Notes under the pieces: generated by a model
What the model saw: the letters and a program-made list of their open reading frames with translations, nothing else
The model's database searches: none
What the model was told of the DNA's origin: nothing
Shown here: positions 29,282-32,928 of the stretch, piece by piece
Position numbering within the stretch: position 1 is the stretch's first letter
Layout: each line of letters starts with the position of its first letter
Source: Bacteroidetes bacterium QS_3_64_15
Lineage (GTDB): Bacteria; Bacteroidota; Rhodothermia; Rhodothermales; Salinibacteraceae
NCBI GenBank assembly: GCA_003022565.1
Contig: PXTN01000075.1
Coordinates: 1 to 53,161, forward strand
Direction of reading: 5' to 3'
Length of the DNA stretch: 53,161 bases
Made by a program: the position numbers and the translations under genes

Positions 29282-32200
29282 TTAGCTGCACCGCGAGTGC
29301 CCGCAGTCCGCGCACTCCATGCAGCCCTCGACGTGGCGAACGTTTGCGGACCCACACTTGTCGCAGGTGACCTCGTGGTCGGTGGCATGGGCGCGAAGCG
29401 CCTTCGCCATGGACTGACCGAACGAGGCGATCGAGCCCTCCGCCTTCTCCAGTTGCTCCACGAGGAAGTCGATCTTGGACCCGTGGCGCAGCGCCGTAGA
29501 CACGAGCCGCGTCTGCTCGCGCACCTCGTCGGACGGCATGTGGCTCGTGATATCCTCAATCACGACATCGCCCTCGGCAGTGAGCAGGGAGTAGTGGCGG
29601 CTTTCGTTTTTTCGAATGTGTCCTTCGTCGACCCGCTCCTGGTCGTCGCCAAAAAGCGGGGCCTCACCCTCTGACTTGAAGGCGAAGATCTCGTAGGGGG
29701 CGTCCTCAAGGAAGCCGACGAGAATCGTCCAGTGATCGCCGCGGTACCGCACGCGGTGGACGGCGCACGGCAGGGTCTCTGGGCGGTCGGGCGCCTCGGT
29801 GCGGGGCACGGTCTGCTCGTCCTCCTCGTCGCCGGAGAGGACGGCACTCATCGTTCCGGCGCGGTAGGTGGTGACGCCTTTGATGACACCCGTTGCGTGC
29901 GCCTTCTTGTAGAGCTCCTTGAAGTCCTCGAAGGGGTAGTCGTTCGGGACGTTGACCGTCTTGCTCATGGAGCTGTCCACGAAGGGTGCCAGCGCCTTCA
30001 TCTGCGTCAGATGATCGTCCACGTCCAGGTCGCGGGTCGTGACGGCCCAGTCGGCGTTCGGGTCCCAGGTGCCATCCTGCTCCATGTGGCGGACGGCGTA
30101 GTCTTTTACCTCCTGGTCCTTGCAGATGTCGCGCGTGGGATGAATCTGCCAGTGGCGAAAGCCCTCTTCCCGGCAGCGGAGCACCGTCTCATCGCCCTGC
30201 TCCTCCGCGGTCCAGGCCGTCCCGTCGGCGTCGATGTCCTGCCCTACCTCGTAGGCGCCGGGAGACATCGGTGGGCGATTGATGCCCTCGGGCAGGGCCG
30301 GCTGTTCGGACGTGCGAATGTAGCTGTGCATGAACACCGGCTCGATGCCGCTCGACGGCGCGTTGCCCAGTGTGGACGTATTGCCCGTCGGCTGAATGGA
30401 GAGCAGGTGGCTGTTCCGAAGGCCCAGGTCGCCGATCATCTCCTTCGTCTCGTCCGAGAGGCGCTGCACGAAGGGACTGCTGAGGTACTCGTCCTTGTCG
30501 AACAGCGGGAACGCCCCCTTCTCATCGGCGAGGCGCGCGCTGGCCTGGTAGGCCCGGTTGGCGAGGTGCTCCTGGAACGTCCGCATCACGCGAGCGCCCT
30601 CGTCCGAGCCGTAGCGCTTTTTCATCATCATGAGGGCCGAGCCGTCGCCGTAGTGGCCGAGGCCGATGCGGCGCTTCTCCTGCAGGTTGCGCTGCTGCTC
30701 CTCCAGGGGGACGTAGCTCAGGTCGTTGACGTTGTCGAGGAACCGCACCGCCAGGGGGACGAGGTCGTCGAGGAGGTCGTAGTCGATTTGACCTTTCTCT
30801 TTATCTACCAACTGCGTCACATTTAAGTTACCAAGTAGGCATACACCTCCAACTGGGAGAACTTGCTCTCCGCAGGGGTTTGTGGCATTTATATGTTCTA
30901 CGTAACCTAGGTTGTTTTCTTTATTTATTGTGTCGACGAAGATGACACCGGGCTCGTTGCGATTGTAGGTGGAATCCATGATCCGATTCCAGATCTCCCG
31001 CGCCTCGTAGACCGCGGGCTCGCCGGTGGCCGGATCCTTCCACGTCTTCACGGTGCCGCCCTTCTCCTGGTAGGCCTTCAGGTTGCCGTCCCAGTGCTCC
31101 TTGTAGAATTCTCTTTCGTTCTCGTAGTCGGGGAACCGGAGCGCCCATGCGTCGTCGTTCCGCACCGCTTCCATAAACTCGTCGGTGATGAGCACCGACA
31201 TGTTGAACTTGTGGAGGCGCCCGGGCTCCTGCTTCGCTTCAATGAACTCGATCACGTCGGGGTGCCAGATGCCCATCGTCACCATCTGGGCGCCCTTCCG
31301 GATCTTGTCCTTCACGTCGTCGCGGTCAGACTTCATGCCGGAGCCGGCCACGATGGTGGCCGCCTGCTTATTCCAGACGTCGAGCATCTGGACGGCGCCG
31401 GGCGTCATGGAGCCGACCCCGCCGATACGGGCGCCGCGAGGACGCATCACGTGGGCACAGAAGCCGTAGCCGCCCTCACTGGCAAGGATCTTGGCCTGAC
31501 GGGTGAGCTCCGCCTGGATCTCGTCCATCGAATCCCGATCATACCCTTGGAAGCCGGAGACGAAGCAGTTGCCGGTGAGGATGCCGTTGTCGAGGGCAAA
31601 GGCCTTCTCTTCCGGCACCTCGGCGCAGTAGACGGTCTCGTAGCGGTCGGTCTCCTCCACCGACTCGACGGTCCAGTGATAAGTGAGGCTCCGATCGCCG
31701 TGCTCGTTGAAGCGGATGCGATGCTCGTCGAGCACGAAAAACTCCTCCCGAAGGGACTGAGGATTGAGACGCACGTAGTACCGCGTCGAGTTCTCGCCCG
31801 TCAGGTTGGAGGTGCGATCTTGGGTCTTGAGCCCGTAGTGGTCGATGCCGAGCACCTCAATGACGTCGATGAAGTGCTCGATGTGCTCTCGGGTGCAGGA
31901 GTCCATAATGACCTCGCCGTTCTCACTCACGCACCCGTCGGCGGCAAAGTAGCCCGCGGCCCAACCGTAGAGCGTGGCCGAGTTCTCGTCAAGATCGACC
32001 GGCGTCGTCTTCCAGGCGTCCGGGAGGCCGCAGTAGCGCGTCACGCCGGTACTGCAGGGTCGACCGGCCGGTCGACCCTCGCTGCGCCCAAAGGGGGCAA
32101 AATAGTTTTCCAGCGACTCGTCTTTTTCGCCCACCAGGTTGACGTTCGCCGCGGCGTCCGGCGACGTGGACACGAGGCTTCCGTCTCCAAACGTAAAGCC

Positions 32201-32728
32201 CCGCGCGATGCCGACGGGCGAGGGCGACACGGAGGTATGGCGACGGGAGTGAACCCGTTCGAGGCGGTGGTGCGACTGGAGATCGTCCGTCTCAACGACA
32301 TCGTATCCGCTCGTTGCCTTCGTCCCTACGTACCAGCGATGGTTGGGCGTTGTATAGATGACGCGCTCTTGCCCGTTTCGGCTCAACGTCACCTTTCGCA
32401 GCGGCTGCCTGCCGTAGCTCTTCACCGGGGCCTCCACCCACTTTCCGTTTCGCGTGAGCAGCGTGGGGGTCGATCCTGCGAGCTCCTCAATGGGCGTCCG
32501 GCCCTGGTCGGTAAGGACGAGCGTCTCGCCCGCCAGACAGTTAATGAGCGTGGCTTTGCCCAGGCCGGTGCCCGCGTTGGCAAAGATGCGGCCGCCCGGG
32601 GTGAAGGGAAACGGACCGGTGTCCAGCCCCTTGCCGCTTAGAAGCTGATAGAAGCGCTGCGTCCAGAGCTCAATGTCGTCTTCGACCGACGCCATGGCCC
32701 GCGCATTGCGGTACCACGTGTCCGGCAC
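29282..32728 (-). CDS. nrdJ: Adenosylcobalamin-dependent ribonucleotide reductase containing an intein
   Basis: This class II enzyme reduces ribonucleotides to deoxyribonucleotides. The frame has 1148 codons: an 824-residue extein plus a 324-residue intein at 64-387. Extein motifs include LASEGGYGFCAHVMRPRGA, INATNPCGEQVLPVGGVCLL (with the thiyl-radical Cys in NPCGE), SIQPTGNTSTLGNAPSSGIE, and a C-terminal zinc-ribbon/redox tail (CDKCGSANVRHVEGCMEC). The frame begins at a GTG (32728). The natural N-terminus appears to be encoded from ATG 32928 in another frame, so a frameshift near 32760 is suspected. Codons for about 50 residues around NPCGE (30785-30932) are strikingly AT-rich. Upstream there is a cobalamin riboswitch with its own promoter, consistent with B12 control. 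Confidence 0.93.
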   Translation of the reverse strand: MPDTWYRNARAMASVEDDIELWTQRFYQLLSGKGLDTGPFPFTPGGRIFANAGTGLGKATLINCLAGETLVLTDQGRTPIEELAGSTPTLLTRNGKWVEAPVKSYGRQPLRKVTLSRNGQERVIYTTPNHRWYVGTKATSGYDVVETDDLQSHHRLERVHSRRHTSVSPSPVGIARGFTFGDGSLVSTSPDAAANVNLVGEKDESLENYFAPFGRSEGRPAGRPCSTGVTRYCGLPDAWKTTPVDLDENSATLYGWAAGYFAADGCVSENGEVIMDSCTREHIEHFIDVIEVLGIDHYGLKTQDRTSNLTGENSTRYYVRLNPQSLREEFFVLDEHRIRFNEHGDRSLTYHWTVESVEETDRYETVYCAEVPEEKAFALDNGILTGNCFVSGFQGYDRDSMDEIQAELTRQAKILASEGGYGFCAHVMRPRGARIGGVGSMTPGAVQMLDVWNKQAATIVAGSGMKSDRDDVKDKIRKGAQMVTMGIWHPDVIEFIEAKQEPGRLHKFNMSVLITDEFMEAVRNDDAWALRFPDYENEREFYKEHWDGNLKAYQEKGGTVKTWKDPATGEPAVYEAREIWNRIMDSTYNRNEPGVIFVDTINKENNLGYVEHINATNPCGEQVLPVGGVCLLGNLNVTQLVDKEKGQIDYDLLDDLVPLAVRFLDNVNDLSYVPLEEQQRNLQEKRRIGLGHYGDGSALMMMKKRYGSDEGARVMRTFQEHLANRAYQASARLADEKGAFPLFDKDEYLSSPFVQRLSDETKEMIGDLGLRNSHLLSIQPTGNTSTLGNAPSSGIEPVFMHSYIRTSEQPALPEGINRPPMSPGAYEVGQDIDADGTAWTAEEQGDETVLRCREEGFRHWQIHPTRDICKDQEVKDYAVRHMEQDGTWDPNADWAVTTRDLDVDDHLTQMKALAPFVDSSMSKTVNVPNDYPFEDFKELYKKAHATGVIKGVTTYRAGTMSAVLSGDEEDEQTVPRTEAPDRPETLPCAVHRVRYRGDHWTILVGFLEDAPYEIFAFKSEGEAPLFGDDQERVDEGHIRKNESRHYSLLTAEGDVVIEDITSHMPSDEVREQTRLVSTALRHGSKIDFLVEQLEKAEGSIASFGQSMAKALRAHATDHEVTCDKCGSANVRHVEGCMECADCGHSRCS
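31568..32539 (-). other. Intein within NrdJ (324 residues, LAGLIDADG type)
   Basis: The intein starts with Cys in CLAGETLVLTDQGRTPIEEL (block A). It has TTPNHRWYV (block B), a LAGLIDADG-like endonuclease motif LYGWAAGYFAADGCV, and ends ETVYCAEVPEEKAFALDNG to LTGN (blocks F/G with terminal Asn). Splicing would join LIN to CFVSGF. The +1 Cys corresponds to the conserved redox-active Cys of class II reductases, so insertion is at a functional residue. One homing motif is clear and the second is weak, so the endonuclease may be degenerate. Inteins at this RIR1 site are known in Salinibacter and haloarchaea. Confidence 0.92.
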
Positions 32729-32759
32729 GCGGTCGTCGGTGCCGTACTGATAATTCTGT

Positions 32760-32928
32760 CGTCCGTCGTGAGGTCGCTCTCCGAGAGCGAATACTGATGC
32801 GATCCATTCTTGGCCGACCGGGTGGCGACACTAATCCCGTTGGAGGCGTGTCCATCGGTGGATTCCTGTGGGGAGGTGGCGACATCGGCCGACGAAGATT
32901 CCGGTGGCGAGGAGGATTTCTGGGACAT
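32760..32928 (-). other. nrdJ: Out-of-frame N-terminal segment of nrdJ
   Basis: From ATG 32928 a frame reads MSQKSSSPPESSSAD, then NGSHQYSLSESDLTTDDR. There it would need to switch to the main frame, which continues QNYQYGTDDRVPDTWYRN. Both sides look like natural halophile protein sequence, and the switch point is about 32755-32765. Either a small indel has separated them or translation of nrdJ truly starts at GTG 32728. Confidence 0.5.

Follow-up and report, generated by a model that had tools for sequence, protein, structure and literature searches.

An AT-rich, almost purely synonymous patch over an empty intein site in nrdJ of a Salinibacteraceae bacterium

The nrdJ gene of Bacteroidetes bacterium QS_3_64_15 raises a simple question: how did one short tract of a GC-rich gene come to be AT-rich with its reading frame uninterrupted? 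The window analyzed here is a 53,161-nucleotide stretch of contig PXTN01000075.1, with an overall GC content of 64.5%. By direct count, 60 of the 148 bases at positions 30785-30932 are G or C (40.5%), exactly the figure that the initial annotation had estimated by hand. Shifting this stretch by one base, to 30786-30933, gives 39.9%, the minimum among all 148-base stretches of the window, and the runner-up stands at 43.2%. As a coding feature, the patch comprises nrdJ codons 600-647 (TINKENNLGYVEHINATNPCGEQVLPVGGVCLLGNLNVTQLVDKEKGQ; 30788..30931, minus strand), delimited from the codon table and from comparison with 12 relatives. GC3 is 0.33 in these codons versus about 0.89 in the remainder of nrdJ, and the borders are abrupt, with 30-codon blocks at 0.87 before the patch and 1.00 after it. 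The binomial probability of finding 16 or fewer codons ending in G or C among 48 is about 3e-19, and nowhere else in nrdJ does a 10-codon window reach a GC3 of 0.3 or below. The GC-rich flanks, sharp borders, and intact frame described in the initial annotation are thus all borne out. An Rfam search of the patch for an RNA element gave zero matches above the gathering score.

The gene (29282..32728, minus strand; identified from the open reading frame listing, TIGR02504, and Pfam PF02867) encodes a class II, adenosylcobalamin-dependent ribonucleotide reductase, scoring 421.8 bits against NCBIfam TIGR02504, for which the cut-off is 399.95. The listed start is a GTG at 32728, and the frame stays open upstream to about 32830. 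One intein is resident, a 324-residue element (31568..32539, minus strand; CLAGETL...GILTGN) at a second nrdJ site, ATLIN|C (here and below, the bar marks the junction), recognized by its sequence and by Pfam matches to Intein_splicing and, weakly, LAGLIDADG_3, both under cut-off. The codons flanking this resident intein are GC-rich and carry no AT-rich patch. The source is a draft metagenome bin (2.62 Mb in 131 contigs, with a completeness of 84%); its genus comprises 13 genomes here, among them Salinibacter altiplanensis AN15. At 32747-32767, 52 bp that the four relatives used for comparison possess (coding for roughly RTNDDIFETEISEEVYG) are absent from nrdJ, so that the N-terminal frame is shifted near 32758 relative to those genes; this gap could be either a true deletion or an assembly error.

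Is the patch a property of the motif that it encodes? In all 12 relatives compared (11 congeners and one further member of the family), GC3 over these 48 codons is 0.85-0.98. Thus, the patch occurs only in the QS_3_64_15 genome, is not shared by all Salinibacter nrdJ genes, and is not a motif property. Intrinsic AT-richness of the conserved motif was rejected, as the region is GC-rich in several intein-free relatives and in all occupied ones. The encoded protein is nonetheless the lineage's own: 45 of the 48 residues are identical to those of the closest congeners, G005 and G006, including all of the first 44, and the three residue changes (R>K, A>K, and T>Q) lie in the final codons of the patch and are multi-base (CGG>AAA, GCG>AAA, and ACG>CAA). 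Among codons that specify the same residue as in G005, 32 of 45 differ within the patch versus 155 of 670 elsewhere in nrdJ (Fisher p about 8e-11), but residues change at the same frequency (0.06) in the patch and in the rest of the gene; the recoding is therefore almost entirely synonymous.

These comparisons bear directly on the proposal, made in the initial annotation, that the tract was converted from a low-GC, Haloquadratum-like archaeon. Such an origin would account for the AT-rich codon composition, and haloarchaea and Salinibacter do have intein sites in common (PMC4071816). But the protein is of the Salinibacter type, presumably no closer to haloarchaeal NrdJ, and the non-genus sequences compared (from the order, viral contigs, and Bdellovibrionota MAGs) reach at most 83% identity over the patch. 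A protein of this type makes an archaeal source of low GC unlikely, and we regard the already disfavored proposal as barely credible. Nor did DNA searches of the sampled phylum, phages, and plasmids show a closer match to any low-GC lineage, an outcome that the initial annotation had named as refuting its proposal. At the DNA level, the patch had zero matches in phages and plasmids, and among 395 genomes of the phylum it matched only congeners, at 74-76%, plus one 32-bp match. At the protein level, the best non-genus match within the order was 65%; viral contigs and Bdellovibrionota MAGs gave about 75-83%, the upper value being the maximum outside the genus among the sequences compared, and identity did not exceed 75% when viral contigs, phages, and plasmids were searched with the protein. 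Searches with degenerate patterns of the patch peptide hit no viral contig in IMG/VR and seven genome contigs, all from Salinibacteraceae or Bdellovibrionota. Across the sampled genomes, viruses, phages, and plasmids, then, the tract matched no identifiable donor allele.

In three relatives, tblastn matches with nrdJ break at query residue 233, and inteins extracted there lie between NP and CGE (361 residues in G012 and G013, 364 in G008). The corresponding NP|C site in the present QS_3_64_15 gene is empty (30872..30877, minus strand, with the junction between 30875 and 30874, as placed by the split matches and the extracted inteins), and it sits inside the patch, with 57 nt of the patch upstream of it and 87 nt downstream. 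The inteins of relatives at this site carry a predicted endonuclease domain, with Pfam LAGLIDADG_3 scores of 93.3 bits in G012 and 45.9 bits in G008. As no intein occupies NP|C in this genome at present, a past visit can only be inferred, a point that weighs against reading the patch as a homing scar. Of the two inteins in the G008 gene (L036), that at NP|C has the odd C-terminus ...GYVQRG, where splicing inteins usually have HN.

The same genome provides a second case. We scanned it for coding blocks of low GC3 between flanks of high GC3, covering 1.46 and then 1.76 of the 2.62 Mb (1245 open reading frames). In the 1.76 Mb there were only two equally strong outliers, the nrdJ patch and a patch in the family B DNA polymerase gene polB (L194). 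The remaining low-GC3 windows were dismissed as N runs, non-coding upstream extensions, or wrong frames. The polB patch covers the intein site KVLIN|SFYG, at which ten members of the family, G005 and G006 among them, have inteins. Its GC3 is 0.27 against a background of 0.90, and its synonymous difference is 0.66-0.82 versus 0.21-0.48, with residue change at or below background in most pairs. A third, short AT-rich stretch begins at polB EGHN|, where G004 has an intein, and beyond these two patches the polB gene of QS_3_64_15 has no 10-codon window with a GC3 of 0.3 or below. As for the nrdJ patch, no donor of the polB patch was found among viruses or phages; isolated Salinibacter phages (H81-H90) encode their own family B polymerase, which in the region of the intein site shares only 44-48% of its residues with that of the host. 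An assembly artefact or bin chimera might be suspected in a draft bin in which nrdJ is missing 52 bp and is frameshifted, but the patches lie on separate contigs, distant from contig ends, in frame, and on intein sites, and related footprints occur in other genomes. We consider such an origin very improbable.

Those related footprints extend the pattern to relatives and viruses. In the polB genes of the Salinibacteraceae, the one family that this test covered, we located the 10-codon window of lowest GC3 in each gene. In 8 of 16 intein-free genes (G004, G007, G008, G010, G011, G012, G018, and G022), this window falls on the N|S site, starting at codons 459-467; occupied genes hardly ever show a minimum there (Mann-Whitney p = 0.014 for free versus occupied, with kinship ignored and relatives non-independent). 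A naive binomial probability for the clustering of minima at the site, likewise ignoring ancestry, is 4e-10. In nrdJ of G008, the lowest window sits at the empty LIN|C site. At each of the two polB sites, intein occupancy is not the same in the sister genomes G003 and G004, and it is at these two sites that synonymous differences between them concentrate. Occupied alleles in Salinibacter and one neighboring genus share AGY at serine codon 465 of polB, and Salinibacter alleles without an intein have TCN, a pattern that co-conversion of the flanks during homing would produce. G004 and G012, although of different clades, are identical in 12 of 13 codons at the polB site. Finally, the polB genes of two viral contigs (L318 and L319; IMG/VR 2830247124_000001 and 3300019924_000119), otherwise close upstream, show nine successive synonymous codon differences at the intein site, including AGT/TCG, and one of the two carries an AT-rich footprint. 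Together, these data make the link between AT-rich patches and intein sites well supported, and we hold it with high confidence.

As to how the patches arose, gene conversion, mutagenic repair, and selection could each contribute, repair and resistance selection being possible alone or in combination. The direction of change is strongly uniform: 25 of 26 changes in nrdJ and 20 of 23 in polB (45 of 49 in total) run from GC to AT. Transitions dominate, and C/G swaps account for only 3 of 42 changes in the patches versus 69 of 142, about half, in the background. The GC-to-AT bias and the missing C/G swaps imply that the patch was shaped under a compositional regime other than that of its surroundings. 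We think it somewhat more probable than not that this is a scar, left at an intein homing site that is now empty and acquired by conversion from an unsampled AT-rich allele. The LAGLIDADG endonuclease of an intein would have opened nrdJ at NP|C, or the site would have lost an intein, and repair would then have copied a short tract, reaching about 57 nt upstream and 87 nt downstream from NP|C, from an AT-rich allele encoding a Salinibacter-type NrdJ. The recoded site may be poorly recognized by the endonuclease, allowing the intein-free allele to persist; possibly, the patch has been kept for the very reason that the site is hidden from the endonuclease. Conversion from a diverged allele is favored by the codons in which several bases are replaced, the abrupt borders, the codon blocks found in more than one clade, the scarcity of C/G swaps, and the nine successive codons changed in the viral pair. 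Against it, the collections searched yielded no donor, and an allele this diverged at synonymous sites should also depart from the host at variable residues, whereas codons 1-44 of the patch match G005 and G006 in every residue. For the original suggestion of gene conversion left by gain and loss of an intein at a second ribonucleotide reductase site, the outcome is mixed: the scar is likely, with NP|C occupied in G008, G012, and G013 and two AT-rich patches on polB intein sites, but neither a Haloquadratum-like donor nor any identified low-GC donor is supported.

A different possibility is that the patch formed in place, through repeated endonuclease cutting and mutagenic repair that produced clustered GC-to-AT mutations, with purifying selection sparing the protein. 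The directional, transition-dominated changes resemble a raw mutation spectrum, the protein is the lineage's own, all footprints are AT-shifted, and Repar and Warnecke in 2017 proposed mutagenic repair as one reason for the raised polymorphism beside mobile introns, at the borders of exons (PMC5378118). Formation in place nevertheless seems unlikely. CGG>AAA, GCG>AAA, ACG>CAA, and the AGT/TCG difference of L318 require several simultaneous changes, the codons common to G004 and G012 imply exchange, the patch is 144 bp long, and there is no strand asymmetry around the cut, which would be expected from simple deamination of resected ends. Alternatively, while inteins circulate, synonymous mutations that break the recognition site could be favored singly, which from a GC-rich starting point would give an AT-rich look. 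The short footprints of about 9-12 codons on empty sites fit the size of a LAGLIDADG recognition site, but patches of 44-48 codons are larger than any such site, and C/G swaps, equally useful for escape, are nearly absent. Moreover, homing endonucleases are described as tolerating single synonymous changes in a statement cited in PMC3024317, which concerns single changes, not many at once. Selection for resistance thus appears improbable as the source of the patch.

If conversion did occur, it would resemble the co-conversion that accompanies homing of inteins and group I introns, in which a short tract over the homing site is replaced during repair of the endonuclease cut. It would differ in that the site is now empty, the tract is AT-rich and almost purely synonymous, and the donor was not found in the sampled sequences. 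A second parallel comes from yeast populations, where raised SNP density was reported at the exon borders of mobile mitochondrial introns, with outside-donor co-conversion versus mutagenic repair left open as the cause (PMC5378118). There too, synonymous change concentrates beside the sites of mobile elements, but here the elements are inteins, the host is a GC-rich bacterium, the change has a single compositional direction, and the sites are empty. In haloarchaeal mcm, invasion-resistant alleles carry a proline change that blocks splicing, although the endonuclease still recognizes the site (PMC10643990). In that case, as putatively in ours, the sequence of the empty site keeps the intein out, but the change here is synonymous. 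A survey by Soucy et al. in 2014 (PMC4071816) described S. ruber polB inteins (polB-a and polB-b) and haloarchaeal and bacterial ribonucleotide reductase inteins (rir1 sites). The host genes are the same, and our sites probably correspond to the named alleles, but that survey maps the presence and absence of inteins, not the DNA of empty sites. A search of the open-access PMC literature turned up no description of recoded, AT-rich blocks at intein sites that are empty.

Sequence change beside mobile introns and inteins may stem from donors outside, from repair that is mutagenic, or from selection for resistance, and the choice among them is still debated (PMC5378118). Here, the direction of the change can be seen because the host is GC-rich, and sister species of the Salinibacteraceae offer both occupied and empty alleles, so that the three causes become separable. 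We advance only tentatively the broader idea that bacteria hold recoded, AT-rich, protein-preserving blocks that hide homing sites and that move between species and viral polB as short tracts. Such blocks, if they exist, would be a natural counterpart of the resistance alleles encountered by gene drives, and if recoded sites do resist cutting, they would confer a natural, protein-neutral resistance to homing gene drive.

Two further observations concern the inteins themselves. The polB KVLIN|SFYG intein (L304 of G005 and L302 of G003) ends in ...WTGQ, not in Asn, and a Pfam search of the G005 copy found no LAGLIDADG match. The genus as a whole is rich in inteins, and by eye their host genes include gyrB, dnaE, rtcB, ruvB, and uvrB (L325-L350).
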